Shown here in pieces: positions 8,564 through 55,740 of a DNA stretch of 64,000 bases. Position 1 is the stretch's first letter. Each line of letters opens with the position of its first letter. A model generated the notes under the pieces. The model was not told the DNA's origin and made no database searches. It worked only from the letters and a program-made list of their open reading frames with translations. The DNA is taken from the NCBI RefSeq assembly GCF_000243255.1, contig NZ_CM001436.1:248692-312691 (forward strand). The letters are read 5' to 3'. The translations under genes and the position numbers were made by a program. The stretch comes from Methanoplanus limicola DSM 2279. GTDB lineage: Archaea; Halobacteriota; Methanomicrobia; Methanomicrobiales; Methanomicrobiaceae.

Positions 8564-9727
8564 ATGAAAATCGTATCAATAGTCGGTGCCCGCCCGCAGT
8601 TTATCAAGTGTGCGCCTGTATCAAGGGTGCTTAGAAAAGAGCACCAGGAGATCTTAGTCCACACAGGCCAGCATTACGATGCCAATATGTCTGACATCTT
8701 CTTTGAGCAGTTAAATATCCCAAAGCCGAATTACAACCTCAATATCGGTTCCGGCAGCCAGGGAGAGCAGACCGGAAAGATGCTCATTGAAATTGAAAAA
8801 GTCCTCATAAAAGAGCAGCCGGATATGGTCTTGGTTTACGGCGATACAAATTCAACCCTTGCCGGTGCCCTTGCAGCAGCAAAGCTTCACATTCCTATAG
8901 CCCACGTTGAAGCCGGCCTGAGGTCCTTTGACAGAACAATGCCCGAGGAGATTAACCGGATTATGACTGATCACCTATCGGACCTTCTCTTCTGCCCCAC
9001 CCAGACCGCCGTTGACAATCTCGCCAAGGAAGGGATAACACAGGACAGCAGTGCGTCAATAACGCAAGACACCAATGGGAAGGGCAGTAAAGGCAAAGTT
9101 AAAGGTAAAGGAGTTTATCTTACCGGCGATGTAATGGTTGATGCCCTCCAATACAATCTAAAAATTGCCAGGGAAAAATCAACAATACTCAATGAATTGA
9201 ATTTTGAGGACAAAAAAGGAAAGTATTACGTTGCAACAGTTCACAGACCAGCCAATACTGATTCCAGAGAAAACTTAACAAACATCATTGAGGCCTTCTC
9301 TGAAATAATCAATTCTGAAAAAACTTCAATAATATTCCCTGTACACCCCAGAACAGTAAAGTGCCTCAAAGAATACGATCTATATGAAAAAATGCCGGAA
9401 AACCTTATCATCCTTGATCCTTTGCCTTACCTTGACATGCTACATTTAATGTCAAATGCAAAGATAATCCTGACAGACTCCGGTGGAATCCAGAAAGAGG
9501 CTTATATCCTTAATGTTCCCTGCATAACCCTCCGAGAAAATACAGAATGGGTTGAGACCCTCCAAGATGGAATGAACATTCTAACCGGAGCTGATAGAGA
9601 TAAAATAATATCAGGCACTTTGGATTGTAAATCTGAGTTATCCTTTAACCATGATATATTTGGAATAGGTAATTCTGCATCTAATATTGTTGATGAAATT
9701 AATTCCTTTTACACTGAGATAAAATAA
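8564..9727 (+). CDS. wecB: UDP-N-acetylglucosamine 2-epimerase (non-hydrolysing)
   Basis: 387 residues. GARPQFIKCAPVSRVL, HTGQHYD, YGDTNSTLAG, HVEAGLRS followed by MPEEINR, and DSGGIQKEA are the diagnostic WecB/WbpI motifs. It interconverts UDP-GlcNAc-type and UDP-ManNAc-type sugars; with the wbp-like genes upstream it may act on UDP-GlcNAc3NAcA (WbpI role) or on UDP-GlcNAc. A ~25-residue low-complexity insertion (S/T/Q/G/K-rich) lies near residue 165, just before the GDVMVDAL motif. Confidence 0.92.
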   Translation: MKIVSIVGARPQFIKCAPVSRVLRKEHQEILVHTGQHYDANMSDIFFEQLNIPKPNYNLNIGSGSQGEQTGKMLIEIEKVLIKEQPDMVLVYGDTNSTLAGALAAAKLHIPIAHVEAGLRSFDRTMPEEINRIMTDHLSDLLFCPTQTAVDNLAKEGITQDSSASITQDTNGKGSKGKVKGKGVYLTGDVMVDALQYNLKIAREKSTILNELNFEDKKGKYYVATVHRPANTDSRENLTNIIEAFSEIINSEKTSIIFPVHPRTVKCLKEYDLYEKMPENLIILDPLPYLDMLHLMSNAKIILTDSGGIQKEAYILNVPCITLRENTEWVETLQDGMNILTGADRDKIISGTLDCKSELSFNHDIFGIGNSASNIVDEINSFYTEIK

Positions 9728-9744: not shown

Positions 9745-10794
9745 ATGGACAATAAATATTTTGAATTATTAAAAAGCCAGCCGGATTTGTGGGATCATTT
9801 TACAAGAAAGGAGGAGTATGAACCTATATTCAGGGACCGATTTGACAGATTTCCATATTATCTGAGTAAAACCAGAAACATCTTTGAGCCTGATGTATCA
9901 GAATTTCTCTTTAAATCAGGATATAAACCAGAATATCCGGACGGGAAAAAATTCGCAGTCTGCCTAACTCATGATATTGACAGTGTTTACAGAAAAATTC
10001 CGGGCAAGTGCTTTCATATCGCCAAATCCACATATAAGAAAGACAAAGCTGAATTTTCTAAAAATTTAAAGAGTATTTGCAACAAAAAGCAACCTCTCTG
10101 CAACTTTGAAGAAATAATGGATGTCGAAGAGAAATATGGTGCAAAGTCAAGTTTTTATTTCCTTGCTTTAAAACCCGGTGATCAGGATTACACATATGAC
10201 ATCATGGACTTTAAAGATGATATAAGATACATAAGAGATCGGGGATTGGAAGTAGGTCTTCACGGTGGACATGATGCTTACAATTTATATGAAAAGATCT
10301 GCGAAGAAAAAAAGCGACTTGAGGATGCACTTGGTTCAGAAGTCATAGGCTACCGGAACCATTTCCTTCATTTCAAAACACCTGATACCTGGGAGCACCT
10401 TGCCCATGCCGGGTTTAAATATGATACAACCTTTGGCTACGCTGACTGTGTTGGTTTCAGGAATGGCATGTGCCATCCTTTCCGGCCATACAACTTAAAC
10501 ACAAATGAATTCATCAACATAACAGAAATCCCACTGGCTGTCATGGACTGTACAATCCTGCACTCATACATGAAGTTAAACTACGACACAGCAATGAACC
10601 TTGCAAAGAGCATGATAGATAAAGTTGCAGAGCTAAACGGTGTTTTCACCCTATTATGGCACAACACATACCTGCAAAGTGACACGCCTGAACTCAGATT
10701 CTACGAGGAAATACTGAACTACTGCAATCAAAAAAACGCTTGGATAACTGATGGGTTGTCAATATCTGAACATCTGGAGACAACATATGTCTGA
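9745..10794 (+). CDS. Polysaccharide deacetylase-like protein (CE4 fold)
   Basis: 349 residues. LTHDIDSVYR (residues ~76-85) fits the CE4 first Asp/His motif, and GLHGGHDAY (~172-180) supplies the metal-binding His pair; LLWHNTY near the C-terminus fits the last conserved motif. Members of this subfamily occur in surface-polysaccharide loci and deacetylate or otherwise process sugars. It overlaps the next gene by 8 bases when that gene starts at its ATG at 10787. Confidence 0.82.
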   Translation: MDNKYFELLKSQPDLWDHFTRKEEYEPIFRDRFDRFPYYLSKTRNIFEPDVSEFLFKSGYKPEYPDGKKFAVCLTHDIDSVYRKIPGKCFHIAKSTYKKDKAEFSKNLKSICNKKQPLCNFEEIMDVEEKYGAKSSFYFLALKPGDQDYTYDIMDFKDDIRYIRDRGLEVGLHGGHDAYNLYEKICEEKKRLEDALGSEVIGYRNHFLHFKTPDTWEHLAHAGFKYDTTFGYADCVGFRNGMCHPFRPYNLNTNEFINITEIPLAVMDCTILHSYMKLNYDTAMNLAKSMIDKVAELNGVFTLLWHNTYLQSDTPELRFYEEILNYCNQKNAWITDGLSISEHLETTYV

Positions 10795-11761
10795 AGAAAA
10801 GTACTATACTAAAATTCTTGAAAGTTCCGAATATCAAGCGTGGGATGAATTAGTACAGGAATCATCCTCAGGAACAATTTTTTCTAATTCGGAATGGTTA
10901 AAACTAACAAGTGAATCACTGAATTCTGATTTATCAATATATGGATGTTTTATAGAAAATGATATTGTTGCTGGCTGTCCAATATTTACAAAGAGGTATA
11001 AAAAATTATTAAAAATTGGTTCAAACACGGAAGGCATGATGCCATATAGTGGAATTGTAATTAAGGATTACCCTAAGGAAAACATTCGAAAATATGAAAG
11101 AAATCAAAATGATATCCTTAGAGCCTTAAGAATTCATCTTGAAAAGTTAAATCTTCCCTACATTATAATTAAAAACCCTATTGGTATTTCTGATATAAGA
11201 GAATTTAAGTGGAATAATTGGAATGATAAAGTATATTACACCTATCTATTAGACCTAAATAATTTAAATTATTCAAGAGATGTTAAAAGGAATATTAAAA
11301 AAGCACTTGGAAATGAAATTTTTATTGAAGAATCCAAGGACATTGATGCATATTTTTCATTATTTGAACATACATTTAAACACCAAGGCCTAAATACGCC
11401 CGTTGATAATAATTATCTTAGCAAGATGTTCAAATATATTTCAGATAATGATAAAGGAAAAATGTTTGTTTCAAAAACAAAGGAGGATCAATGGGTTGCA
11501 GCAGAAATTTTTGTTCATGACAGTAATTATGTTCATAGGTGGACAGCTGCAACAGACATCAACTTAAGAAAAACTGGAGGATATCATCTATTACTTGACC
11601 ATGCATTCAATTATTTCAAAGAGAAAGGATTTGGTACAATGAACCTTATGGCCGGAAATACAACTCAATTAACTGAGTTCATCACTGGATTTAACCCTAG
11701 TTTAAAGACTTATCTTTCAATAGAGAAAAAATCAAATATAATTTCAATGGCAAAAAAATGA
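10787..11761 (+). CDS. FemAB/GNAT-like acyltransferase
   Basis: 325 residues from ATG 10787, chosen over an upstream frame start at 10751 because GGAG lies eight bases before it. Segments like SGTIFSNSEWLKL, RDVKRNIKKAL and GYHLLLDHAFNYFKEKGF fit the FemAB / BioF2-like double-GNAT family (aminoacyl or acyl transfer to glycans or peptides). Codon use turns markedly AT-rich here compared with the deacetylase gene before it, suggesting a transferred segment starts near this junction. Specific substrate unknown. Confidence 0.72.
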   Translation: MSEEKYYTKILESSEYQAWDELVQESSSGTIFSNSEWLKLTSESLNSDLSIYGCFIENDIVAGCPIFTKRYKKLLKIGSNTEGMMPYSGIVIKDYPKENIRKYERNQNDILRALRIHLEKLNLPYIIIKNPIGISDIREFKWNNWNDKVYYTYLLDLNNLNYSRDVKRNIKKALGNEIFIEESKDIDAYFSLFEHTFKHQGLNTPVDNNYLSKMFKYISDNDKGKMFVSKTKEDQWVAAEIFVHDSNYVHRWTAATDINLRKTGGYHLLLDHAFNYFKEKGFGTMNLMAGNTTQLTEFITGFNPSLKTYLSIEKKSNIISMAKK

Positions 11762-12330
11762 ATCATAAAAGACTATTCTCTATTGGAATTAATCAACTTA
11801 ATAATATTAATCGCAATTTAAAAGATTGTTTTGGAAGCATTATTTCCAGTTATCATTATATAAATTCTTGTAATAGTATTTCCAAATGTGATTTGAACAG
11901 TTTAAAACATGTACTGTTAATTTATAGAGAATCTTTTGGTGGTAATGCTGGAAAAAAGATAAAAAAATATTGTAAATTATTTAATCATACATTTTATATT
12001 TTAAAATATGATGGTGATGTGGTGGGGTATTGTATATATTACATACACATAAAATTAGAAAATTTGAAGCTAATTAAAAAGGCTACATTATATTCAATTG
12101 CTATAACACATAAAGAACGCAAAAAAGGATTTGCAAAAATATTATTAAAAGAGAGTATTAACGAATTAAAATTTAATAATATTTCAAAAATAGCACTATA
12201 TGTGGACTGCAAAAACCAAGCTGCAATAAATCTATACAAATCATATGGATTTATAATTATTGGTGAAACAGAGAATATTTGTGGATTAAAAAAGAACTGT
12301 TACTTAATGGAATTATGTTTTAAAGATTGA
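11758..12330 (+). CDS. GNAT N-acetyltransferase (RimI-like)
   Basis: 190 residues overlapping the previous gene by ATGA. The acetyl-CoA motif region is clear in SIAITHKERKKGFAKILL (the R/Q-x-x-G-x-A loop), followed by VDCKNQAAINLYKSYGF, the usual GNAT end. The first ~55 residues are not part of the fold and are Asn/Ser/Ile-rich. Very AT-rich. Likely acetylates an amino sugar precursor of the glycan, by context only. Confidence 0.8.
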   Translation: MNHKRLFSIGINQLNNINRNLKDCFGSIISSYHYINSCNSISKCDLNSLKHVLLIYRESFGGNAGKKIKKYCKLFNHTFYILKYDGDVVGYCIYYIHIKLENLKLIKKATLYSIAITHKERKKGFAKILLKESINELKFNNISKIALYVDCKNQAAINLYKSYGFIIIGETENICGLKKNCYLMELCFKD

Positions 12331-12350
12331 ATTTAACAATGAGGGAATTT

Positions 12351-14297
12351 ATGAAAATACTTATCTTAGGATTAACATCTTCAGGTTTAGGAGGAATGGA
12401 ATACCATAATCTAGGAAACTATGCTATTATGGAACCATTGATAATTGAATTAAAGACAAAATTTCCGGAGGCTGAAATCTCAACGTCTATTCAGATGTCT
12501 GATGAATTTTGTAATAATTTTGAAATTTCATCAATACATGATAAAAGATTCTGGACTTATGGACCGCGTACAGGTTTAATTACATCTAAAGATCTCATAT
12601 TGAGTTCTTTAAATTATGGTTATAAAAATCTAAAAAAGAAGAATAGTATTTTTTTGGTTAAAAAAAGCAAATTACTATCAGAAATTAATAGTTCTGATCT
12701 AATCATAGATTTCAGCGGCGATGTTTATGGAGACAATGCTTCTAATCTTAAATTTTTGGAGGACAATGCAGAGATCTTTATTTCAAAAATGTTGGGTAAA
12801 CCAGTTGTAGCATTTATAGGATCTCCAGGGCCTTTTTCATCCAAATGGAGACAAATCATTGCTAAAAAAGCATTAAACAGTATTGACCTAATTACCAACA
12901 GGGATCCCATAAGTACTGAAATTTTAAAGGAACTTGGTGTAAAGGAAGACCATATGTATAGTACTGCATGCCCCGCTTTTTTGTTTAAACCTCTCCCAAA
13001 AGAGGATGCTGAAATCATTCTAAAAAAGGAAGGAATCATTCCAAAGGAAAGACCTCTTGTTGGTATGATTATATGCGGATGGAACATGGCAGAAGCACCA
13101 TTCAACAAACTTCCAAGAGAGGAATATGAGTTGATTCCATTTGTTGAATTGATAAAACACATTATATCAAAAGAAGATGTAAATGTCCTTTTAATGAGTC
13201 ATCAGAATAGAACTGATGCTGAAAATAATTTAATTAAAGGTAATGATCATGCCATCATTTCTCAAATTATTGAATTATTAAAAAGGGATAATATTGATTT
13301 AAACAGAATTATTCAGCTGGATGGACTATACAATGCAGCACAGTCAAAAGCAATAATTGGTGAGTGCGATCTGCTAATCAGCGGAAGAATCCATGGAGCA
13401 GTAGGTGGTCTTTCTCAATGTATTCCAACGGTAATTATTGATTATGGGCATGAACCAAAGGCCCACAAGTTAAGGGGATTTGCCCGGCTTGCAGGTGTTG
13501 AAGAATATATATGCAATCCAGCTTCAACTGAAGATATGATCAATAAATTTGACAAATGCTGGATTAATAAAGATAAAATAAAAGTTCTTCTTGAAGAAAA
13601 AATACCGGAAGTAAAAAAGAAAGCCAAAGAGAACTTTTCTCTTTTAAATAGATGTATATTTGAAGAAAATTCCCTAAATAATAATATGTCTGCGATAAAG
13701 CACAATCAACTTGAAAATGTAAACAAATTGAATTCTAATCTAAACCATTTTCTTAAAAACATTCAAAGTGATACAAAATTTATTGAACAAATCTATCCTC
13801 TAATCAAAAAAAATATTGATAACCCAGACTTGGAGATCTTAGATGTTGGTTGTGGTTCAGGCGTTCTTGTCAATAAATTGAAGAAAGAGAATGTCTCAAA
13901 ATTTGTTTATGGATGTGATTTTTCCTCGGAAAAAATTGAAAAATGTAAAAAAATCTATCAAATGGATTCTTTTTTTGTACATGATATATATTCTCTATTG
14001 AATAATTTGTTTGATGTTATAATCTGCACAGAAGTATTAGAACACCTTGAAAATCCTGAAAATGCATTAAAAAACTTGTTAAGTTCCCTAAAAGAAAATG
14101 GAAAATTAATAATAAGTGTCCCTGATGGCAGAAAGGATACTTTTTTAGGACATATTAATTTTTGGAGTCCTGAGAGTTTTAAATTATTTATCACCAAATT
14201 TGCAAATAAGGATAAATATGAGATCTATTTTTATTACATTAGTAACAAGAATATTTGTATTATAAAAGATCTAAATAGCTATCAGATTACCTCTTAA
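12351..14297 (+). CDS. Polysaccharide pyruvyl transferase fused to SAM-dependent methyltransferase
   Basis: 648 residues from ATG 12351 (GAGGG seven bases upstream; an in-frame ATG at 12327 has no such site). Residues ~1-390 match the CsaB/WcaK pyruvyl transferase fold: MKILILGLTSSGLGG start, YHNLGNYAIM, DFSGD, RDPIS, and the late GRIHGAVGG motif. Residues ~490-640 are a class I methyltransferase with LEILDVGCGSGVLVNKL (SAM site) and VIICTEVLEHLENPENA. The two domains are joined by a ~80-residue helical, Asn/Lys-rich linker. A single chain would add a pyruvyl ketal and a methyl group to the same glycan. I see no frameshift, so fusion seems genuine. Confidence 0.85.
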   Translation: MKILILGLTSSGLGGMEYHNLGNYAIMEPLIIELKTKFPEAEISTSIQMSDEFCNNFEISSIHDKRFWTYGPRTGLITSKDLILSSLNYGYKNLKKKNSIFLVKKSKLLSEINSSDLIIDFSGDVYGDNASNLKFLEDNAEIFISKMLGKPVVAFIGSPGPFSSKWRQIIAKKALNSIDLITNRDPISTEILKELGVKEDHMYSTACPAFLFKPLPKEDAEIILKKEGIIPKERPLVGMIICGWNMAEAPFNKLPREEYELIPFVELIKHIISKEDVNVLLMSHQNRTDAENNLIKGNDHAIISQIIELLKRDNIDLNRIIQLDGLYNAAQSKAIIGECDLLISGRIHGAVGGLSQCIPTVIIDYGHEPKAHKLRGFARLAGVEEYICNPASTEDMINKFDKCWINKDKIKVLLEEKIPEVKKKAKENFSLLNRCIFEENSLNNNMSAIKHNQLENVNKLNSNLNHFLKNIQSDTKFIEQIYPLIKKNIDNPDLEILDVGCGSGVLVNKLKKENVSKFVYGCDFSSEKIEKCKKIYQMDSFFVHDIYSLLNNLFDVIICTEVLEHLENPENALKNLLSSLKENGKLIISVPDGRKDTFLGHINFWSPESFKLFITKFANKDKYEIYFYYISNKNICIIKDLNSYQITS

Positions 14298-15732
14298 ATA
14301 TTGATATTATAAATTTTCTTTCTTTTATAGAGAAAAATTTTAATAGCGCCAGTGAAATAAAATAAACAATCATACTAATTATTATTGCCTCAATAAGGGA
14401 AGCAAAAGAATTATTATTAAATATTAATAAAGGAAATAACATAAATCCAGATGCAATTATGCATTTCAAAAATGCAATATAATCATAGTTTATCATATAA
14501 TAATTAACATTAATACAATGGCATAATGCCAACATAATGAGAAATGATAATAAAGTCGCATATGCCGCACCTATTATTCCTAATATTGGAATCAATATAA
14601 TATTTAATACCAAATTTGCAATTGCAGCAGATAGTTGTATATATAAATTTAATTTCGTCTTCTTTACTAATAATGGAATATTGATTAATATCTGAAATAA
14701 TCCAGCAAAAAAAGCTCCTAAAGCAACAACAGGAATCACACCTGCGCCCTCAACAAATTCTTCAGTTGTGAACAAAAGAATCAAAGGCTCAGAAATCACA
14801 AATAATCCAAAAACAGCAGGTATTGCAATCATACTAAAATATTTGACCGCCATTGAAAGATACAGCCGGACTGTATCATGATCCCCCTCGTCATATAATC
14901 GTGCAAGTTCCGGATAGAGGATCATCTGTAGAGGAGTGATAAATAACTGGATTAAACTACCAATAGCATAAGCAGCATTGTAAATACCAACCATTGTAGC
15001 TCCCAGTAAAAATCCAATTATATACCTGTCACTAGAATCAGTAACCCATCGAATTAATCCATTTGGGGTCAACGGTGCCCCGAATTTTAAGAAATCTTTT
15101 ATGTAACAAAATTTTGGAACAACTATTCCAATCTGCCGGTAGATAAAAAATAACGCCAGAAGGAATAATGTAAACATTACAATAAGGTTTGCACCTATGA
15201 CACTCATAAGGCCAAAACCATTCAGGAGAAGAACTGTTGTCAGAACAAGATGTCCAACCGACTTGTAAATAGTAAGAGCACCAAAGAAATTTATCTGCCG
15301 GAAAATCCGGAAGTAAAATGTAACAATCTGTCCGACAGCCCCAAGAAGAATAAGTCCGGCGCCGGCTTTTACATAATATGATGCACTTTCGTCCTGGAGC
15401 ATAAAGGATGCAATATTGTCTGATAGTAAAAAGACAGCTGACGAGATAACCAGGCCTGTTACAAATACAAAGAGGAGTATTGAGTAAAAACTCTCCTGAA
15501 TCTTTTGCTTATCCTTCTCGGCTGAAAGAAACCGGACAGCTGCCATCTGAAGGCCCATAATTCCAAGAGGTGTCAGCAGGGAGACTGTGACTGAGATCTG
15601 TGCCCAGATACCGTAGTCATATGGGCCAAGTGTCTTTGTTATGAGCGGCAGGAGGAGGAATGCTGCAAGTGACGTTGTTGCCTGTGTTATGCCGATTATA
15701 CCAACATCTTTTATGAATTTTTTGTGGTGCAT
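14287..15732 (-). CDS. Polysaccharide/oligosaccharide flippase (Wzx/MATE-like)
   Basis: 481 residues with about 13-14 hydrophobic segments. The start DVGIIGITQATTSLAAFLLL followed by PLITKTLGPYDYGIW is the classical Wzx N-terminus. It would flip lipid-linked glycan across the membrane. The gene is convergent with the preceding fusion gene and overlaps its 3' end by 11 bases. Base composition changes along the gene: the first ~300 codons are ordinary, the last ~170 are AT-rich like the neighbouring transferases, suggesting a recombination edge near 14830. Confidence 0.9.
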   Translation of the reverse strand: MHHKKFIKDVGIIGITQATTSLAAFLLLPLITKTLGPYDYGIWAQISVTVSLLTPLGIMGLQMAAVRFLSAEKDKQKIQESFYSILLFVFVTGLVISSAVFLLSDNIASFMLQDESASYYVKAGAGLILLGAVGQIVTFYFRIFRQINFFGALTIYKSVGHLVLTTVLLLNGFGLMSVIGANLIVMFTLFLLALFFIYRQIGIVVPKFCYIKDFLKFGAPLTPNGLIRWVTDSSDRYIIGFLLGATMVGIYNAAYAIGSLIQLFITPLQMILYPELARLYDEGDHDTVRLYLSMAVKYFSMIAIPAVFGLFVISEPLILLFTTEEFVEGAGVIPVVALGAFFAGLFQILINIPLLVKKTKLNLYIQLSAAIANLVLNIILIPILGIIGAAYATLLSFLIMLALCHCINVNYYMINYDYIAFLKCIIASGFMLFPLLIFNNNSFASLIEAIIISMIVYFISLALLKFFSIKERKFIISIFKR

Positions 15733-15883
15733 TTAGATATTATAAAGATTTTAATTTATTTTGGAATAAAGGCTTCCTTTTTCGGTTTTTCTACCGAGAT
15801 GATTTGGGTTGGCAGGACAGATTTGAAGCCTATTCTGAATTCAAAACCAAAACTTCAAAACACTATTAAAAACAATATATACC

Positions 15884-16843
15884 ATGCATTATGTGGTCAC
15901 CGGTGGTATGGGATTCATCGGTTCAAATCTTTCGGAATATCTGGCGAAAGATCATGATGTCACAATAATTGATGACGGGGCAACCGGGCGATATGTCAAT
16001 ATTAAAAACCTTGTTGAAAATAGAACCGGCAATTCAGGATCTGCTGAAGGATTGGATAATTCTGTGAGGTTTGTAAAGGGGAGCATAACAGATCCGGAAC
16101 TCCTCAAAAAAGAGTTTGAAGGTGCAGACGGAATCTTCCACCAGGGAGCAATACCATCAGTTCCAAGATCAGTTGCAGATCCAGCAAGAACAAGTAATGT
16201 CAATATCGAAGGTACATTAAATGTCCTTATTGCAGCCCGTGACTGCGGTGTCAGAAAGGTAGTATTCGCATCTTCATCCTCAGTATACGGCAATACACCA
16301 ACACTGCCAAAGGTTGAAACAATGTGTCCTTCACCCCTCTCACCATATGCACTCCAGAAACTTGCAGGTGAGACCTACTGTGGAATCTTCACAGATATCT
16401 ACGGCCTTGACACTGTTGCTCTCCGTTACTTCAATGTCTTCGGCCCAAAGCAGGACCCTAATTCACAGTATGCAGCAGTTATTCCGAATTTTATTAAGAA
16501 ACTTCTAAACAATGAAGCGCCCATCATCTACGGAAACGGCGAACAGACCCGTGACTTTACATATGTCAAAAATGTAATCCAGGCAAATGTAAAAGCAATG
16601 GAGTCTGATGCAACCGGATTTTACAATATAGCCTGTGGTGAGAGAATATCACTAAATAATCTTGCAGAAAACATAATGGAAATATTAAACTTCCATACAG
16701 AACCAATATATAAAGAGCCAAGGGCGGAGGATGTAAGGGATTCACTTGCAGACATTTCCAAAGCAAATAATGCATTCAATTACAAACCGGAATACAGTCT
16801 TAATGATGGGCTTAGGGAGACAATAGAATGGTACAATATCTAG
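15884..16843 (+). CDS. NAD-dependent sugar-nucleotide C4-epimerase (WbpP/TviC/GalE family)
   Basis: 319 residues, extended SDR. HYVVTGGMGFIGSNL (NAD site), FASSSSVYG, SPYALQKLAGE (catalytic Tyr and Lys), RYFNVFGPKQDPNSQYAAV and GNGEQTRDFTYV are diagnostic. A short low-complexity insertion lies near residue 50. With the TviB/WbpO-like dehydrogenase two genes downstream it would give a UDP-GalNAcA-type sugar. It is divergent from the flippase; the 151-bp gap should hold both promoters. Confidence 0.9.
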   Translation: MHYVVTGGMGFIGSNLSEYLAKDHDVTIIDDGATGRYVNIKNLVENRTGNSGSAEGLDNSVRFVKGSITDPELLKKEFEGADGIFHQGAIPSVPRSVADPARTSNVNIEGTLNVLIAARDCGVRKVVFASSSSVYGNTPTLPKVETMCPSPLSPYALQKLAGETYCGIFTDIYGLDTVALRYFNVFGPKQDPNSQYAAVIPNFIKKLLNNEAPIIYGNGEQTRDFTYVKNVIQANVKAMESDATGFYNIACGERISLNNLAENIMEILNFHTEPIYKEPRAEDVRDSLADISKANNAFNYKPEYSLNDGLRETIEWYNI

Positions 16844-16948
16844 AGTAAATTTTATCAAAAATTATATATTAATCTAAGAACAAACAGATTAATAGTTGTA
16901 TTTTTCACATTATAATAGTTATACATATAGTAATTAAGAGGATTTAAT

Positions 16949-17680
16949 ATGATCAGTTTAGATGAACAAACAGAAAGAGATTTTTTTGATAAAAATTTTT
17001 CAACATATATATCTCCAATAGATCGTATAGACAAGTATTTTATGGATTATCTTCTCCTCCATATAAATAAGAAATTAATGATTTTAGATATTGGGGGAGG
17101 AGGAGGACAATTTGCTAATTCCTGTGTTAAAAATATGCCAAATTGTAAAGTGACAATTGTTGATCCCTCTAAAAAAATGCTAGATTCTGCAAATGATTAC
17201 AATATTAATATTATTAAAATTCAAGGAGGCCTTCCAAATAAATTAAATGTTACTGAGACGTATGATACGGTACATATAAACAATGTTATCCACCATATTG
17301 TAGACACCAGTCCAAAATTATCTAAAAAAAAAGTATATGAATCATTATTAAATATCAAAGATACTATGAATTCAGATTCTAAATTACTTTTCGGGGATAT
17401 TTTTTATGATGGACATATATATCCCCCTATTTCAAAATTTCTTATTTTCTATCTTTTGAAAATTCAAAATATTTTAGGATATAAATTTAAAGATGATAAT
17501 TTTCTTTTAGGACTCAATGTTTGTTTTTACTCAAAATATGAATTAGAAAAATTAATAAATGATGCTGGATTCAAAATTGAAAAAACTTACAAATATGAAT
17601 GGAAAAAGTCATATAAAACGGCTTTATTGGGAATAAAACGATATGGAAGAATTGGATTTATTCTTAGTAAAATGAATTAA
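16949..17680 (+). CDS. Class I SAM-dependent methyltransferase
   Basis: 243 residues. LMILDIGGGGGQFANSCV is the SAM-binding motif I, TIVDPSKKMLD the acidic post-I loop, and DTVHINNVIHHIVD the motif II region. GAGG lies eight bases upstream of the ATG. Strongly AT-rich compared with the genes on either side, so it is likely a separately acquired insert. Probable role: methylation of a sugar in the glycan. Confidence 0.85.
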   Translation: MISLDEQTERDFFDKNFSTYISPIDRIDKYFMDYLLLHINKKLMILDIGGGGGQFANSCVKNMPNCKVTIVDPSKKMLDSANDYNINIIKIQGGLPNKLNVTETYDTVHINNVIHHIVDTSPKLSKKKVYESLLNIKDTMNSDSKLLFGDIFYDGHIYPPISKFLIFYLLKIQNILGYKFKDDNFLLGLNVCFYSKYELEKLINDAGFKIEKTYKYEWKKSYKTALLGIKRYGRIGFILSKMN

Positions 17681-17710
17681 TATTAATAAAATAAATTATA
17701 GGAGCCAAAA

Positions 17711-18976
17711 ATGGAAGAAAAAAAAGTAAATGAGCTAACCATCTGTGTGGTAGGTCTTGGGTATGTTGGCCTTCCTCTTGCAGAAGCTTTTGCCGGGAAG
17801 ATCAGAACAATTGGTTATGAAATTGTTGAAGCAAAAGCAAAACAGATAGCTGATTCAACCAAAACACCACTTATTGTAACATCAGATCCTGCAATGATAA
17901 AGGAAGCTGATATGATTGCAATATGTGTTCCAACTCCGGTTCTAAAATCCAAAGAGCCTGATCTCTCATATGTTAAATCCGCAGCCACCACCGTTGGTCA
18001 GAACCTCAAGGCCGGTGCAATTGTTGTTCTTGAATCTACTGTGTATCCCGGTGCAACAGAAGAGATAGTAATTCCAGCACTTGAGAAAGAATCCGGAATG
18101 AAATGCGGACAGGATTTCAAAGTAGGTTATTCTCCGGAGAGAATAAACCCCGGTGATGACGAACACACTCTGGACAAAATAACAAAAATTATCTCCGGAA
18201 TGGATGAGGAAACAACAGAAACTCTTGCAGAGATATACGGACTTATAACAACAGTTTACAAAGCACAAAATATCAAAACTGCCGAGGCTGCAAAGGTCAT
18301 AGAAAACATCCAGCGTGATCTAAACATTGCCCTGATGAATGAACTCTCATTAATTTTCAGCCGGATGGATATTGACACAAAAGCAGTCATTGATGCAGCA
18401 TCAACCAAATGGAATTTCCATCAGTACAGGCCCGGCCTAGTTGGTGGTCACTGTATTCCGGTTGATCCTTATTATCTAGTCTACAAAGCAAAGGAGCTTG
18501 GCTATCATCCACAGGTGATTCTTGCCGGACGCGCCATTAACGACTACATGCCAAAGCATGTTGCTGAAATGGCCATAAAGGGCATAATTGAAGCCGGAAA
18601 AGTCATAAAAGGTGCCAAAGTTCTGATAATGGGCCTTACATATAAAGAAAATGTCGCTGACACCAGAGAAAGCCCTGTCGAAGACATGATCAAGGAGCTT
18701 AAAGAATGGGGCATTGAAGTCTATGGTTATGATCCTCTTCTTTCTTTAACTAGCATAAATAAACTAGGGGCACAACATTTTGAAAGTAAGAGAATGAACA
18801 AAAATAACATAGTGATAGATTGTATTATATTCAACACCCCACATGATATTTTCCAAAAACAACAAATCGAAAGTTTATTGACTTTTATTGATGATAAATT
18901 TGTATTAGTGGATATACCAGGTTCATTCAAAATTCCCAATAACATTATTGAAGGAAGCAACTATAAAAAATTATAA
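17711..18976 (+). CDS. Nucleotide-sugar dehydrogenase (TviB/WbpO type)
   Basis: 421 residues. VVGLGYVGLPLAEAFAGK, LESTVYPGATE, YSPERINPGDDEHTLDKITK, EAAKVIENIQRDLNIALMNE and the catalytic Cys motif GLVGGHCIPVDPYYL place it in the TviB/WbpO group (UDP-GlcNAc or UDP-GalNAc 6-dehydrogenase). From about 18740 the DNA becomes AT-rich and the last ~75 codons differ in style from the rest, consistent with a recombination edge inside the gene. GGAG precedes the ATG. Confidence 0.9.
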   Translation: MEEKKVNELTICVVGLGYVGLPLAEAFAGKIRTIGYEIVEAKAKQIADSTKTPLIVTSDPAMIKEADMIAICVPTPVLKSKEPDLSYVKSAATTVGQNLKAGAIVVLESTVYPGATEEIVIPALEKESGMKCGQDFKVGYSPERINPGDDEHTLDKITKIISGMDEETTETLAEIYGLITTVYKAQNIKTAEAAKVIENIQRDLNIALMNELSLIFSRMDIDTKAVIDAASTKWNFHQYRPGLVGGHCIPVDPYYLVYKAKELGYHPQVILAGRAINDYMPKHVAEMAIKGIIEAGKVIKGAKVLIMGLTYKENVADTRESPVEDMIKELKEWGIEVYGYDPLLSLTSINKLGAQHFESKRMNKNNIVIDCIIFNTPHDIFQKQQIESLLTFIDDKFVLVDIPGSFKIPNNIIEGSNYKKL

Positions 18977-19130
18977 TTAATTTAGACAAACATTAGGCAT
19001 GTAAATTCTATAGTGTGATTATTGTGGCGCATAACCTTATTTTTAGGATTAATCGGAATGAAATAGAAATTATTTCTAAGCGTGCATCCTTATCACACAT
19101 AGTCCAATACAGTGTTGAGGATTTAAAAAT

Positions 19131-20348
19131 ATGCAAGTAATATTATTGGATCACCATTATTTATCGGATGGTAGAATAGAGAGACATTTAAAATATATAT
19201 TATCTAAAAATATCAATACTACAAGATTACATTTTAACAGGTGTGAACCTAATTTAAAATCTGGTTTATACTCCCAATTTGGAGAAAAAAGCTATCGAAT
19301 TAATGTTAATTGTAATTCGAACTTTTTAAAGAGATATTCATCATATTTAGTGTTTTATTACTCCAGTTACTTAATATATAAGGATGTAAAAAAAGCTATT
19401 AAAACTCTCAAAATTAATAAATATGAACCCACAATAATTCATGTTCATGATCCTGCTCTTTTGAACCTTGCAAAAATCTTAAAGAAAAATATATTTAATA
19501 AATCCATAATCATTTATGATAGACACGAAGTGTATGAAAAAAAAATCAATATAAAAGGCATAAAAATTACTAAACTATCTAGAATATATGAAATTAGAGC
19601 AAAAAAACATATTAATGGCATAATCTCTGTTTCAGAAAAACACAACCAAAAAATAAAAGATATGTTTCCAATGGCTCAGATATCGACAATTCCAAATTAT
19701 CCAAGCACATCAGATTATAATATAAAATACATATATAATAAAATAGATGAAACCAATTCAAAAAATGATATTAATTTAGTATATGTGGGATCTTTAGCAA
19801 ATAACTATAATAGAGATATAGATTTACTTTTGGCTGTTTACAAGGAGGTCCTGCTTAAGTTTCCAAATGTAAACTGTTATGTAGGTGGAACATGTAATGA
19901 TCCAAAAATAAACAAAAAAATGGCTGATTTAAAGCAAGAATTTGGAAATAAATTTAACTACTTAGGAAGGATCTCTCGCTCAAAAACTGCTGAAATAACA
20001 GAGAATTCACATATAGGTTTTCTTTTGATGAAACCTGATACTCATTGGGTACGTACTTCTCCAAATAAAACATACGAGTATTTAATGTGTGGTGCTCTAC
20101 CAGTAATAAGAGCTGATGTTGATCATTCGAATGAATTTGCGAAATGTTCACTAATGTTCAATAGAAATACTTCTGAAGAAGAAATTATTCAAGGAGTAAT
20201 AGATCTCTTAGAAGAACCAGATAAGTTAAAAAATATGATGGAGGGTGCACTACATTTAAGCAAAAAATTTTCTTTCGAATTAGTAAATGAGAAATATTAC
20301 AACATTTATGAGTCCCTATTACATACTGAAGGATATTATAATAAATAA
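19131..20348 (+). CDS. Glycosyltransferase, GT4-like (GT-B fold)
   Basis: 405 residues. N-terminal half: VILLDHHYLSDGRIERHLKY, IHVHDPALL, YDRHEVYE. C-terminal half: LVYVGSLANNYNRDIDLLL and NKTYEYLMCGALPVIRAD, the donor-binding region. Very AT-rich. GAGG lies ten bases upstream of ATG. Sugar donor and acceptor unknown; by context it extends the lipid-linked glycan. Confidence 0.82.
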   Translation: MQVILLDHHYLSDGRIERHLKYILSKNINTTRLHFNRCEPNLKSGLYSQFGEKSYRINVNCNSNFLKRYSSYLVFYYSSYLIYKDVKKAIKTLKINKYEPTIIHVHDPALLNLAKILKKNIFNKSIIIYDRHEVYEKKINIKGIKITKLSRIYEIRAKKHINGIISVSEKHNQKIKDMFPMAQISTIPNYPSTSDYNIKYIYNKIDETNSKNDINLVYVGSLANNYNRDIDLLLAVYKEVLLKFPNVNCYVGGTCNDPKINKKMADLKQEFGNKFNYLGRISRSKTAEITENSHIGFLLMKPDTHWVRTSPNKTYEYLMCGALPVIRADVDHSNEFAKCSLMFNRNTSEEEIIQGVIDLLEEPDKLKNMMEGALHLSKKFSFELVNEKYYNIYESLLHTEGYYNK

Positions 20349-20394
20349 GATTATATTTAAAATAAAAATATAGCCCCACTAATTTATGGGCACG

Positions 20395-22212
20395 TCAAGA
20401 CCTGAGCCAATGCCCAAAATAATAAGGACCTGTAATCAAAGAACTATTTAGGTCTTCAAAAAAATATTTCTCTCCATTATTATAAACAAAATTTGCTTGG
20501 TTTTTTGTTTGCATTAGATTACCATTATAAACCATATATTCCACACACTCAATACATAAAATATTATTTTTCCTAAAATTTAGTGCAGATCTATCTTCAT
20601 ATGTAAGATAGATCTTATCTATATTTATTTCATCGTTGAATATTTTATTCCCATCAAAATTATAATATGACGTAGTAGTAAAAAAGAAAAAAAAGAAAAA
20701 GATTAGAAATACTGAAATAATAGGAATTCTATTATTGATTAAATTGAGATTTTTTTTCCTCAGAGAACATATTATCCTCAGTATTGAATTTGAAGAAAAA
20801 ACTAGTATAATTGTTGATATTACTATCAAAGATCTCTCACCACCTAGAGACATTTTACCAGTTACAAGACCCAATAAAGGTGTTAGAAAAATAGAAACTA
20901 CAATACTGGAATATAAAATATTTAACTTAGACGGCTTTTTTAACCAAAGTAATAATTGTATTACTAAAAAGAACATGACAAATGAAATACAAAGGTATGA
21001 AACAAAATGTTGAAGAAAAAAATTAATAGACATATCCAAAATTGATAATTTACTAGTTGTCATCATTGAACCAGTTGAACCCTCTTTGGAAATTTCATGA
21101 ATTATTAAATTTGATAAGAAGGTATTTATTACAAATAAATGGTACATATAAATTAAGATATATGTTAGCAAAGGCCCTCCAATCAAAATATTAAGAAAAG
21201 GAGTATTATAAAAGTTTTTGCAAAAAAATAATTTATATACAAAGCACAATATGAAATATGCACCTAATATTAAAATTACTGGTAATGACACTTCGGGATG
21301 CCAGAAATACAGAGCAATCAATGAAAACCAAAGAATTATAGGGTATTTAGGAGATTTATATTTATGTATTGAAATCAAAATTAATATTACCAACAATAAT
21401 AAAGAAATACCGGCAATTTTCCCCTGATTAAATGTAACGCAATAAATACTAAGTGTAGATATTGATACTAAAAGTGCAGCTAATAAACCTGATTTACTAC
21501 TATTGAATGTAGACCTTGCAATAGAAAATGCTAATAATACTGATACAACAGAAAATGATATATTTAAAATCTGAAATGTATTTTTTGAAAATGATAATAG
21601 ATTGCCACAAATTCCGTATAAATAATAATAAGAAGGAAAATGATAATATTGATCAAAATCCCTACTGATTTCACCACTAACAATTACGGAATTTATATTA
21701 TTAAAATGATAATATGAATCTATCCCAGTAATATAAGGATTTATTGAATATGTAGATGCACGAGCAACAATAGCTAAAACCAATATAAATAAGAGTAAGA
21801 CACATACGTTATAGCTTGACTTTTTACTAACGTATAATATATTTGCTATAACCATCAATGCGAATAAAGACAACAAAATGTAATATTCTATTGGTTTAAT
21901 ATAAGTTGCAAAGTAAAGTATACCCAACAACCCAACATATAATGCAATAAATATCAGATAATAAATATTATTCTTCCCAAAACATACACTTCGAGCTAAT
22001 GTCCAATTATATTTACACCTATTATCTCGAAATAAATAATTAATTACTCCCAATAATGAAAAAAATGAGACTCCAATCATTAGAATTCCAAGTGTTTTAA
22101 GTTCACTAGTAATAAATAAAATAACTGAAATTAACAAAAATACAAAACAGATTAAGGCTGAAAAATATTCAAAATAAATATAATATTTTCCATAGTTATT
22201 AGCTTTAATCAT
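20395..22212 (-). CDS. Polytopic membrane protein, GT-C-like glycosyltransferase or polymerase
   Basis: 605 residues with roughly 12-14 hydrophobic segments and a C-terminal ~100-residue soluble part. After the fifth segment comes ITGIDSYYHFNNINSV and then RDFDQYYHFPSYYYL, reminiscent of the first-loop acidic motif of GT-C enzymes such as STT3/AglB (D.YYH). No WWDYG motif is seen, so it is not a standard oligosaccharyltransferase. A Wzy-type polymerase is the alternative. Very AT-rich; a run of eight Phe near residue 500 follows from a poly-A/G stretch. Confidence 0.6.
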   Translation of the reverse strand: MIKANNYGKYYIYFEYFSALICFVFLLISVILFITSELKTLGILMIGVSFFSLLGVINYLFRDNRCKYNWTLARSVCFGKNNIYYLIFIALYVGLLGILYFATYIKPIEYYILLSLFALMVIANILYVSKKSSYNVCVLLLFILVLAIVARASTYSINPYITGIDSYYHFNNINSVIVSGEISRDFDQYYHFPSYYYLYGICGNLLSFSKNTFQILNISFSVVSVLLAFSIARSTFNSSKSGLLAALLVSISTLSIYCVTFNQGKIAGISLLLLVILILISIHKYKSPKYPIILWFSLIALYFWHPEVSLPVILILGAYFILCFVYKLFFCKNFYNTPFLNILIGGPLLTYILIYMYHLFVINTFLSNLIIHEISKEGSTGSMMTTSKLSILDMSINFFLQHFVSYLCISFVMFFLVIQLLLWLKKPSKLNILYSSIVVSIFLTPLLGLVTGKMSLGGERSLIVISTIILVFSSNSILRIICSLRKKNLNLINNRIPIISVFLIFFFFFFFTTTSYYNFDGNKIFNDEINIDKIYLTYEDRSALNFRKNNILCIECVEYMVYNGNLMQTKNQANFVYNNGEKYFFEDLNSSLITGPYYFGHWLRS

Positions 22213-22358
22213 ATAAATCCCTCTTCTTCCTCCACATTAGAAATATAATCGTTTCCATTAAATACACAGCCCATATACATGCAAACATATATGAGTATGC
22301 ATATTATCTAGGGTTAAAATTATAATTAATTTCAAACCTATACAAGCAAAATACACCC

Positions 22359-23504
22359 TTATTTTCCACCATAAATATATTCTAATTTATTAATTATGAC
22401 ATCCCAAGAAAAATGATTCCTAATGTACTGTCTTCCATTTGCAACCATTCTTAGATTGACCTCAGGATTTTCTATTGCATATCTAATCATCTCACTTAAT
22501 TGAATAACATTTCCATAATCAACAAGATATCCACAATGTTCTTTATAAATTTCTTCTGAAATATGACATTCCCGTGTTAAAATAACTGGTGTTCCATATA
22601 TTAATGATTCAATAATCGTATTCCCAAAGGATTCATATTTTGATGAAACAACAAATAGATCAGAATCACAATAAGCCTCTATTTTATCAGTACCATATTG
22701 TGGACCAATAAATAATACCTTTGTATTAAGTTCTAATTCATCAACCAATCCTTTTAGATTATTTAATTCTCCTTCATCAGGTCCTGCAATAATTAATTTA
22801 ACATTTTCTATAGATTTTGATATCTCATAAAATGCCAAAATTAAAAATTCGAGACCTTTTATCTTATGTATTCTCCCTAAGGACAAAATTATTTTTTCAT
22901 CTGTTGATAAACCAAATCTTTCCCGAAAACTACTATTGGGCAGTAAATAATTGGCATAATTTATATCTATACCATTCGGAACAATACATATTTTATTCTC
23001 AGAAACACCCATTAGCATGTATTGTTTTTTTTCAATTTCAGTTGAGGCAATAACCTTAGATGCATCACTTAATTGTCTAAATCCAAAAATGTGATCATAT
23101 ATCTTTTTTTCAATAGATTTTTCAAAAAAAGGCAGTACCGAACCACGGGCCTGGACAATATATGGAATACCATATTTAATAGCATATTTCCGAGTAGCAT
23201 CATTTTGATACGCCCTATACTGTTGCATATGAATTACATCATATTTTCGAATTTCTTTAATAAGCCAAACCTTGATGCCAGGTGAGAATATATACAATCC
23301 TAAATTAAATTTAGAAGAGAAAACCACAACATCAATACCACAGTCTCTAATTTTAGATAGATATTCCATATCGATCATATAATCAGAACAAATTATTGTA
23401 ACATCATGTCCACGCTTGACAAGTTCACTTGAAATATTTGCTGTAGAAGTAACTGGACCCCCAAACATAGGTGAAAAAAAAGGAATTACTTGTAATATTT
23501 TCAT
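22359..23504 (-). CDS. Glycosyltransferase family 4
   Basis: 381 residues. ILQVIPFFSPMFGGPVTSTA is the GT4 start, VQARGSVLPFFEK the acceptor region, CIVPNGIDINY the domain link, and LGRIHKIKGLEFLI plus YESFGNTIIESLIYGTPVI the nucleotide-sugar site with its conserved E-x7-E pattern. Same strand and operon-like order as the next transferase upstream. AT-rich. Confidence 0.9.
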   Translation of the reverse strand: MKILQVIPFFSPMFGGPVTSTANISSELVKRGHDVTIICSDYMIDMEYLSKIRDCGIDVVVFSSKFNLGLYIFSPGIKVWLIKEIRKYDVIHMQQYRAYQNDATRKYAIKYGIPYIVQARGSVLPFFEKSIEKKIYDHIFGFRQLSDASKVIASTEIEKKQYMLMGVSENKICIVPNGIDINYANYLLPNSSFRERFGLSTDEKIILSLGRIHKIKGLEFLILAFYEISKSIENVKLIIAGPDEGELNNLKGLVDELELNTKVLFIGPQYGTDKIEAYCDSDLFVVSSKYESFGNTIIESLIYGTPVILTRECHISEEIYKEHCGYLVDYGNVIQLSEMIRYAIENPEVNLRMVANGRQYIRNHFSWDVIINKLEYIYGGK

Positions 23505-23582
23505 AATTTACCACAAAACAATATCTCACTCATATTTTACAATATTAATTGCCAATTAACTCTTAAATTATTTATTGATTAA

Positions 23583-27888: not shown

Positions 27889-29184
27889 TTAACCCTTTTT
27901 CATCATTAATGAGAGAGAGTTTAGTATCAACCCTGACGTTATCAGAAGCATGCCTATAACAATGCAGTTGAAGCTTATAAACAGCATCAGGTAGTGAAAT
28001 ATCTCGAAGTGGTAGTATTCGGATATTACAAAGACGCCACTTACGAGGCCTGCCAGGAATAGGAGGAGGCCGGGTATGCCGAATACTAGCAGGGGCCGGC
28101 TGTAACCGATCTTGCCCACAATACTTCCCAGGACACCAAAACCATGAGTAATTGGGTTCTTTTTGTGCTTGTTTGGGACATCGTATCTGACTGAGATGGG
28201 CACCTCACAGATCTTAAGACCCTTTCCAAGCATGTGGGTTATCATGTCAGACTCTATGTTGTATCCGTTTGACATGAAATCCATGTTTGCAAGGGCATTG
28301 GGGCCAAGGGCACGAAAGCCGGACTGCGAATCTGTGGATTTGAAGTTTGAGTTTTGTCTGATTTCTTTATCACAGGTCAGGTTCGTTGCATAGTCAAGGG
28401 TTACCTGGCCAAGGCGCCGGTATTTTGGGACCTTGTTCCTGCATTGATTGCTTCTGCTTTTAGTTTTTTTGTTGTTATTACCTTTATTGTTGTTTTTGGT
28501 TCCATTTCCATCATCATCTTTCTCACTCTCATCTTTCCCCCCCTCAGCTTCCTCGTCTTCATCATCGAAGTCTATGAAGCGGGATCCTATTACGAGATCA
28601 GCCTCGCCGGCGATAACCGGAGCCAGAACCCTCTCAATATCAGTTGTGTGGTGCTGGCCGTCACCGTCAAGGAGGACTGCGGCTGTGCAGCCTTTCTCTA
28701 GCGCTGCCTCAATGCCGCGTTTTAATGCATAGGCTTTGCCCTGGTTCTCTTCGTACCTTATAACTTCGGCACCGGCAAGTTCTGCAACCTCTGCCGTTCT
28801 GTCAGTTGAGCCGTCATCCACTATAATTACCCTGTCAACCTCCGGCAGGGTTTTTAGGATAAGGCTGCCTATGACAAGCTCTTCATTGAGGCAGGGAATT
28901 ATTGCACAGACGCATGAACTCTTTCCACCTAAGGATGAATTTTCCCTATCAAAGGATGAATTTTCCCTATCAAAGGATGAATTTTCCCTATCAAAGGATG
29001 AATTTTCCCTATCAAAGGATGAATTTTCCCTATCAAAGGATGAATCTTTCCCATCTAAGGACGAATCTTTCCCACCTAAGGATGAATTTTCCACATATGA
29101 GTATGAATTATTCCCATCAAAGGATGAATATTCCCCATCCGAGCATGAATCTTTCCCATCCAGTCCTGTCAGATTGCCAGACAA
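27889..29184 (-). CDS. Family 2 glycosyltransferase with heptapeptide-repeat N-terminus
   Basis: 431 residues from a TTG at 29184 (GGGG about four bases before it; no in-frame ATG precedes the catalytic domain). Residues ~15-90 are about eleven 7-residue units of the SSFDREN type. The DPM1-like domain follows: AIIPCLNEELVIGSL, DDGSTDRT, LDGDGQHHT, VIGSRFID. A ~45-residue D/E/K/N-rich insertion comes after VIGSRFID, and two membrane segments end the protein. It likely makes a polyprenyl-phosphate sugar. The repeat region and the insertion are not found in ordinary family members as far as I know. Confidence 0.85.
   Translation of the reverse strand: MSGNLTGLDGKDSCSDGEYSSFDGNNSYSYVENSSLGGKDSSLDGKDSSFDRENSSFDRENSSFDRENSSFDRENSSFDRENSSLGGKSSCVCAIIPCLNEELVIGSLILKTLPEVDRVIIVDDGSTDRTAEVAELAGAEVIRYEENQGKAYALKRGIEAALEKGCTAAVLLDGDGQHHTTDIERVLAPVIAGEADLVIGSRFIDFDDEDEEAEGGKDESEKDDDGNGTKNNNKGNNNKKTKSRSNQCRNKVPKYRRLGQVTLDYATNLTCDKEIRQNSNFKSTDSQSGFRALGPNALANMDFMSNGYNIESDMITHMLGKGLKICEVPISVRYDVPNKHKKNPITHGFGVLGSIVGKIGYSRPLLVFGIPGLLLFLAGLVSGVFVISEYYHFEIFHYLMLFISFNCIVIGMLLITSGLILNSLSLMMKKG
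28925..29166 (-). repeat. 21-bp tandem repeat inside the GT2 gene
   Basis: About eleven units of 21 bp (five nearly identical, the rest diverged). As 21 is a multiple of three, unit gain or loss keeps the reading frame and changes only the number of 7-residue units. Central units are most alike, as expected from recent slippage or unequal exchange. Confidence 0.9.
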
Positions 29185-29790: not shown

Positions 29791-30061
29791 TTCCACTTTT
29801 CCGGCAACCCCTGCGAAAGTATCACTTCGAGAACACGCCCTGACCTCAGGGCTTTTCGCTAATACAATAGCTAATAGCCAACAGCAAATACAACAGCAAA
29901 TACAACAGCAAATACAACAGCAAATACAACAGCAAATACAACAGCAAATACAACAGCAAATACAACAGCAAATACAACAGCAAATAACCAACAACCCGGC
30001 CAAACAGCCCGGCCAACAGCCATCAGGAATACCCTTCCGGGTATTCACAGCAGGCAGAAAC
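29791..30061 (+). repeat. Dispersed repeat, copy A
   Basis: Matches 49756-49997: both begin with ttccacttttccggcaaccc, contain the hairpin GCCCTGA-CC-TCAGGGC followed by TTTTCGCTAA, then an acagcaaataca stretch, and end with the hairpin AATACCC-TTCC-GGGTATT and cacagcaggcagaaacc. The two copies differ mainly in internal short-repeat number. Confidence 0.85.
29881..29986 (+). repeat. 12-bp tandem repeat
   Basis: Nearly nine perfect units of acagcaaataca inside dispersed repeat copy A. The other copy of the element has only about one unit, so this array expanded here. Confidence 0.95.
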
Positions 30062-55485: not shown

Positions 55486-55740
55486 GGAATATAAACGACA
55501 AAATGTTTGAGATTTATCGGATACAAACGACAAAATGTTTAAGATTTATCGGATACAAACGACAAATGTTTGAGATTTATCGAATATAAACGACAAATTG
55601 TTTAAGATTTATCGGATACAAACGACAAAATGTTTAAGATTTATCGGATACAAACGACAAATGTTTGAGATTTATCGAATATAAACGACAAATTGTTTAA
55701 GATTTATCAAATATAAACTACACAATCATTAATTATATCG
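55486..55740 (+). repeat. Array of eight 31-33 bp tandem repeats
   Basis: Units start near 55486, 55519, 55551, 55582, 55614, 55646, 55677 and 55709, each like ggatacaaacgacaaaatgt plus ttaagatttatc. Units 2-4 and 5-7 form a repeated triplet of about 95 bp. There are no spacers, so this is not CRISPR. Iteron- or protein-binding-like array; flanking DNA to 55951 has no gene. Confidence 0.92.

Follow-up and report, generated by a model that had tools for sequence, protein, structure and literature searches.

Gene content and composition of the locus

The window analyzed here is the whole stretch of 64,000 nucleotides spanning bases 248,692-312,691 of the single-contig, 3,200,946-bp genome of Methanoplanus limicola DSM 2279. 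It carries a region whose genes are named by Pfam and NCBIfam as sugar-nucleotide enzymes, glycosyltransferases, a flippase, and acyl- and methyltransferases (Table 1). Our main subject in this region is a tviB-like gene for a UDP-HexNAc 6-dehydrogenase (17,711-18,976), in which the last ~76 codons, here called the tail, appear to have a different history from the preceding head. The gene passes the general nucleotide-sugar dehydrogenase model TIGR03026, and its score of 356.6 bits against the TviB equivalog model NF011729 lies below the cut-off of 592. We compared the locus with 232 genomes of the order Methanomicrobiales, one genome per species, including a congener (G001, another species of Methanoplanus, probably and by our assumption M. 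endosymbiosus) and a member of another genus in the same family (G115). We consider it probable that the region is a surface-glycan biosynthesis locus built by cassette replacement around a few conserved genes.

Recursive segmentation of G+C (GC) content over 5,997-30,000 placed breaks at 10,872, 14,701, 18,776, and 23,653, with segment GC, in order, of 0.38, 0.28, 0.37, 0.27, and 0.35. The sampled G+C of the window genome was 0.422, and a passage of the published genome description gives 42.2% (PMC4149034). The initial annotation, made from the letters of the window, had described AT-rich blocks alternating with blocks of ordinary composition, and the outer edges of these blocks were recovered by our unsupervised segmentation (10.9, 14.7, 18.8, and 23.7 kb). 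Another AT-rich block that it had placed at 16,850-17,700 was not split out by the segmentation, and it proved to be a separate insert consisting of a single methyltransferase gene of 25% G+C. The two edges it had drawn inside genes, in the flippase and in tviB, lie within ~15 bases of the positions found by the tests described below. We found no tRNA anchor within the window, no RNA families at the gathering threshold, and no transposase or integrase among the 20 genes scanned against Pfam.

Table 1. Features of the glycan locus, in window coordinates
Feature	Coordinates	Strand	Basis and remarks
wecB-like UDP-GlcNAc 2-epimerase	8,564-9,727	+	NCBIfam wecB above cut-off; left backbone, common with G115 (blastn)
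Polysaccharide deacetylase-like gene	9,745-10,794	+	Backbone; VimE-like, below cut-off
AT-rich cassette 1	10,787-14,297	+	Three genes; GC segmentation, domain searches
FemAB/GNAT-like gene	10,787-11,761	+	Cassette 1
GNAT gene	11,758-12,330	+	Cassette 1
Pyruvyltransferase-methyltransferase fusion	12,327-14,297	+	Cassette 1
Flippase, Polysacc_synt / MOP type	14,287-15,732	-	5' part backbone-like; 3' part (14,287-14,844) AT-rich like cassette 1
TviC-like SDR epimerase (tviC)	15,884-16,843	+	Backbone; best NCBIfam match TviC, below cut-off
Methyltransferase gene	16,949-17,680	+	AT-rich; splits the tviC-tviB pair
tviB head	17,711-18,735	+	Backbone; NAD-binding domain, central domain, first part of C-terminal domain (Pfam)
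tviB tail, class B	18,736-18,976	+	Rest of C-terminal UDP-binding domain; foreign to head
AT-rich cassette 2	18,977-23,504		Pfam
Dispersed intergenic repeat	19,008-19,104		After tviB, 31 bp past its stop
GT4-like gene	19,131-20,348	+	Cassette 2; below Pfam cut-off
PMT-like membrane protein	20,395-22,212	-	Cassette 2; below Pfam cut-off
GT1	22,359-23,504	-	Cassette 2

A joint within tviB and its recurrence among relatives

Along tviB, nucleotide identity to the congener fell from 0.887 to 0.433 at 18,734-18,737 (gain in log likelihood [lnL], 104.8), and amino acid identity was 93% in the head and 24% in the tail. This end of identity agrees with the edge near 18,740 and the ~75 differing last codons of the initial annotation. 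The GC content changed from 0.42 in the head to 0.27 in the tail (per-codon contrast, p = 0.0002), but it is the loss of homology to the congener, not composition, that we regard as decisive, and from these alignments we take the edge to be a genuine recombination joint. The head looks vertically inherited because it (89.6% identical to the congener) and the TviC-like epimerase (90.2% over 15,884-16,834) are close to the ortholog median of 90.2%, a thin baseline resting on the 8 of 184 sampled open reading frames (ORFs) for which the sampled part of the congener genome gave a DNA match with 60% coverage. The window genome holds no second close tviB (next-best match, 33%), and a DNA search of the 232 genomes detected no donor for either the tail or the beginning of cassette 2.

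Rows counted as tviB homologues if they were at least 50% identical to the head, covered head residues 12-338, and had a tail of at least 40 residues; 78 passed, and 77 were used after L060 was dropped for its truncated tail. Tails of one type, class B (23 rows including the window), formed one clade on the tail tree (support, 100/97). On the head tree, which was a quick tree, the class B label changed nine times among the 77 homologues, and the head data rejected class B as a clade (lnL difference, 600; approximately unbiased [AU] test, p = 5e-66). The separate head and tail phylogenies called for by the initial annotation were thus in strong conflict across the family. A sharp break was detected in 13 of the 61 pairs whose codons 1-200 were no less than 83% identical, and these 13 represent five lineages (window/G001, G110a/b, G090, G207/G200, and G065). 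All sharp breaks fell at codons 278-292 or 339-344 (278, 281, 292, 341, and 342 in the examined pairs), a clustering that is partly a selection effect since the pairs had to be alike in codons 1-200. Tail AU tests rejected the head grouping for G090 (p = 0.0004), G207/G200 (p = 0.0008), and G065 (p = 2e-7), and head AU tests rejected two tail groupings (p = 0.026 and 0.0003). Outside these five lineages, the L023/L025 pair has a break near codon 327 (gain, 30.6).

In G110, two tviC-tviB pairs lie ~11 kb apart (L086 10267-12434 and L087 1099-3266), with heads 89% identical in amino acids and different tails. The G001 and G110b tails share a clade (97/93), and downstream of tviB both genomes encode the same kind of 602-amino-acid protein, an ABC transporter by reading of the translation.

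We also examined where the joints would fall in the protein. A structure model built from 22 of the tviB sequences (mean predicted local distance difference test score, 84; predicted template modeling score, 0.77) has a single helix at residues 268-294 and, farther on, a strand at 336-340 that leads into a loop containing residue 342; the best solved relatives align to about residue 346 only, in two alignments. By this model, joints near 342 are predicted to fall in the loop and joints at 278-292 in the domain-linking helix. Tail residues D370, H378, D401, and G404 were invariant in 22 of 22 aligned sequences, suggesting that the swapped tails may remain functional.

Tails were also linked to the DNA beyond them, in composition and neighbor-gene tests that ignore shared ancestry. 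Across 70 of the 77 loci (7 without 500 bp on both sides were left out), GC content at third codon positions (GC3) in the tail tracked the next downstream kilobase (partial r = 0.55, p = 8e-7, controlling for the other segments and upstream DNA) with no effect of upstream GC, and whole-head GC3 tracked upstream DNA (0.56, p = 5e-7) and not downstream DNA. The segment just before the joint fell in between (r = 0.22, p = 0.07), which would be expected were some of the joints located near codon 280, and head codons 188-265 correlated negatively with downstream DNA (-0.36, p = 0.002). In partial Mantel tests, similarity of downstream genes tracked tail identity given the head (61 of 77 loci; 0.086, p <= 0.004; head given tail, -0.03), and upstream genes tracked the head (64 of 77 loci; 0.216, p <= 0.006). 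Together with the joint, this linkage would amount to cassette exchange with hitch-hiking of the tail. In the window itself, the first part of cassette 2 (18,742-20,400) had no match in the congener except the small repeat that follows tviB. The dispersed intergenic repeat after tviB (~70-100 bp) is present in six copies in the genome, the five others being 76-86% identical and adjoining what look like unrelated genes, and in one or two copies in the congener. We set it aside as a cause of the joint in view of these neighbors and of its position beyond the end of tviB.

The flippase, the methyltransferase insert, and further edges

The flippase has a GC3 change-point at 14,844 (0.39 to 0.19; permutation p = 0.0004). 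Among 139 control ORFs elsewhere in the genome, eight had change-points at p <= 0.005 and three reached the same likelihood ratio; the flippase break alone is unusual, not unique. The first 418 bp of the gene are 87.6% identical to a remnant in G115, the rest of the G115 copy being a short decayed piece. The flippase edge of the initial annotation is supported by composition and by this 5' remnant beside a different cassette, but not by phylogeny, as trees of the 5' and 3' parts agree on the relatives of the window copy, the outcome that the initial annotation had named as refuting. A flippase joint is therefore best described as likely rather than demonstrated. In G115 (L080 11944-12447), the 167-amino-acid flippase remnant occupies the slot corresponding to that in the window and lies next to a complete, different flippase. 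In L137 and L044, the flippases of G086 and G106, GC3 falls by ~0.3 past the same codon as in the window flippase, and a comparison of L137 with L043 gave a break at window codon 282 (lnL gain, 49).

The methyltransferase gene between tviC and tviB is absent from this position in G001 and in both G110 loci, where nothing separates the two reading frames, which overlap by 19 bp. Because of this direct overlap, the gene was most likely inserted in the window. Its relatives at E <= 1e-15 occur in 2 other genomes of the 232.

Two edges absent from the initial annotation lie farther left. In the wecB-like gene, GC3 changes from 0.59 to 0.33 near 9,086, and identity to G115 drops from ~0.8-0.87 to 0.62-0.8 at about the same place, which suggests a further joint. 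Homology of the deacetylase-like gene to G115 stops at 10,755, within its last codons, and another joint seems present there. Between the deacetylase and the flippase, where the window carries cassette 1, G115 has an ATP-grasp-like gene, a PHP-methyltransferase gene, and another flippase (names read from translations rather than searched). Elsewhere in the window, we observed a 21-bp tandem repeat (10.8 copies; 28931-29157) encoding repeated SSFDREN-like residues where a glycosyltransferase 2 gene starts, a 12-bp tandem repeat (10.3 copies; 29861-29986) inside a low-complexity reading frame, and a 32-bp tandem repeat array (~7.5 copies; 55489-55726).

Probable cassette exchange, its alternatives, and known systems

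What the sequences demonstrate is a sharp joint in tviB that recurs in other lineages, together with the linkage of tails to downstream DNA. We propose that incoming DNA would pair with genes that are conserved in the locus (the tviC-tviB pair, the flippase, and the deacetylase) and cross over inside them, with the gene part nearest the cassette replaced along with new downstream genes. In tviB, the crossover would lie in the last fifth of the conserved head, in the helix at codons 278-292 or in the loop at codons 339-344 after the second strand of the C-terminal domain. The product would be a chimeric but structurally plausible dehydrogenase, with an old head and a new tail, followed by new downstream genes. 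The archaeal homologous recombination machinery would presumably perform the exchange, with homologous recombination on both sides and a second crossover downstream; the enzyme would stay active, and selection for new surface glycans may keep the products. The initial annotation had suggested homologous exchange anchored in conserved genes, as in O-antigen loci, and this model suits tviB; for the flippase, both parts of which have the same relatives, its support comes from composition and from the G115 remnant. We go further and consider the TviB-like C-terminal subdomain a possible recurrently swapped module that gates glycan-cassette exchange across Methanomicrobiales, with crossovers confined to two fold-compatible points and each tail type carrying its downstream cassette, a proposal that we judge about evenly balanced between right and wrong.

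Several observations weigh against the cassette-exchange model as a whole. The GC3 contrast in tviB is weak (p = 0.049 at the fixed point; p = 0.22 in a free scan), and we rejected GC3 alone as proof of the joint. Tail AU tests did not reject grouping the window with G001 (p = 0.172) or G110a with G110b (p = 0.101); for the former, the tail is short and its branch very long, and the case for this pair would rest on the abrupt loss of identity. The best tail identity to the window was 36%, and no donor of the window tail was found. A conflict between flippase 5' and 3' trees, sought with 35 sequences, was not found, as both parts gave the window the same neighbors. Exact-match runs between distant alleles are most frequent at codons 191-210 and 231-280 and show lesser maxima at 141-150 and 311-320, and nearly none lie after 350; this distribution would fit crossovers near the last homology before the variable tail, although runs are few at 339-344. 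Upstream genes also weakly track the tail (0.099, p <= 0.048), the neighbor-gene effect is small and the linkage effects modest, and neither the composition correlations nor the neighbor tests account for kinship.

We considered whether tviB might be the only mosaic gene, with the AT-rich 3' part of the flippase being a chance compositional stretch. The agreement of the two flippase trees and the equally strong GC3 changes in 3 of 139 control ORFs make this a possibility to be taken seriously, although we do not favor it: the flippase change sits at the edge of an AT-rich cassette with similar GC3, in G115 only the 5' part of the gene persists, next to a different cassette, and 3 other flippases of 35 drop by at least 0.25 in GC3 past the same point. 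Ectopic gene conversion between resident tviB paralogs, which would homogenize heads within a genome and leave two ancient tail types in place, could account for the several genomes with two tviB copies and for G110, which holds both tail types on its similar heads with the change at codon 292. However, it appears unlikely, as the window genome is without a second close copy, the breaks in G090/G088, G207/G200, G065/G055, and window/G001 are between species, and the tail tracks downstream genes.

Illegitimate or element-mediated insertion of cassettes, with the intragenic joints being incidental, would suit the methyltransferase insert, which has no recognizable homologous anchor of its own, and the dispersed repeat just past the tviB stop. 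We find it distinctly unlikely, given that the tviB joints keep the reading frame, lie close to conserved motifs, and exchange one homologous sequence for another and that the searches of the window for tRNAs and of 20 genes for transposases or integrases were negative. A C-terminal subdomain that simply evolves much faster, with AT-richness reflecting relaxed constraint and no recombination, seems highly improbable. Tails are generally less conserved than heads, both flippase parts have the same neighbors, and GC3 change-points do arise in control ORFs, but other pairs with 90-97% identical heads keep 67-97% identical tails compared with 24-37% in swapped pairs, identity falls within a few bases, class B tails of 80% identity occur on heads only 71-74% identical, and the head and tail trees conflict. 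Recurrent exchange of the tviB tail with its cassette would mean that a methanogen order exchanges its surface-glycan loci in the manner of bacterial antigen clusters, and does so at a reusable joint within an enzyme of the pathway. The natural chimeric dehydrogenases could be used to probe the contribution of the C-terminal half of the UDP-binding domain, and tail type is a possible marker by which the exchange of cassettes could be followed in metagenomes.

Passages of earlier work on bacteria and Haloquadratum describe surface islands that are exchanged through homologous recombination in their conserved flanks (PMC4033161, PMC4535781). Replacement flexible genomic islands (Lopez-Perez et al. 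2014, PMC4033161) are alike in that unrelated glycan or surface cassettes are exchanged via conserved flanks, including in the archaeon Haloquadratum walsbyi. As those passages present them, whole clusters are exchanged between strains of typically >96% average nucleotide identity, with single-nucleotide polymorphism peaks in flanking genes, whereas here the joints would lie inside glycan genes, between species and families, and involve reusable tail types. As in such islands, the same chromosomal slot holds unrelated contents in relatives (the G115 slot, and the DNA downstream of tviB, which differs in G001 and G110), joints lie in conserved bordering genes (tviB and, by composition only, the flippase), and bordering sequence hitch-hikes with the cassette (tail GC3 and neighbor genes, uncorrected for shared ancestry). 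The Haloquadratum cell-wall island GI1 (PMC4535781) is likewise an archaeal surface locus with many detected recombination events, but it is haloarchaeal and varies within a species, and the passages contain no recurrent dehydrogenase joint. Haloferax glycosylation clusters (PMC5867893) are variable archaeal N-glycosylation clusters in which within-gene recombination was tested, with one event in aglD; in the passages, events are mostly within clades of one genus, and no downstream-linked tail swap is mentioned. Passages on Acinetobacter clusters (PMC3726653) mention no dehydrogenase chimera.

The gnd gene by the enterobacterial O-antigen cluster (PMC2884935), as excerpted, is also a sugar-metabolism dehydrogenase at a cluster edge with intragenic recombination and co-inheritance, but gnd is a flanking housekeeping gene and tviB a pathway member. 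Moreover, compared with gnd, the swapped part of tviB is a subdomain ~25-35% identical to the part it replaces. Studies of gnd were reportedly made by Bisercic in 1991 and by Nelson and Selander in 1994. Searches of the open-licence literature turned up no account of dehydrogenase tails being swapped recurrently in methanogens. Replacement glycan islands are already known, also in haloarchaea, and what our analysis adds is that tviB contains a point at which intragenic exchange recurs across a methanogen order; the locus is a real, somewhat unusual instance of a known process.

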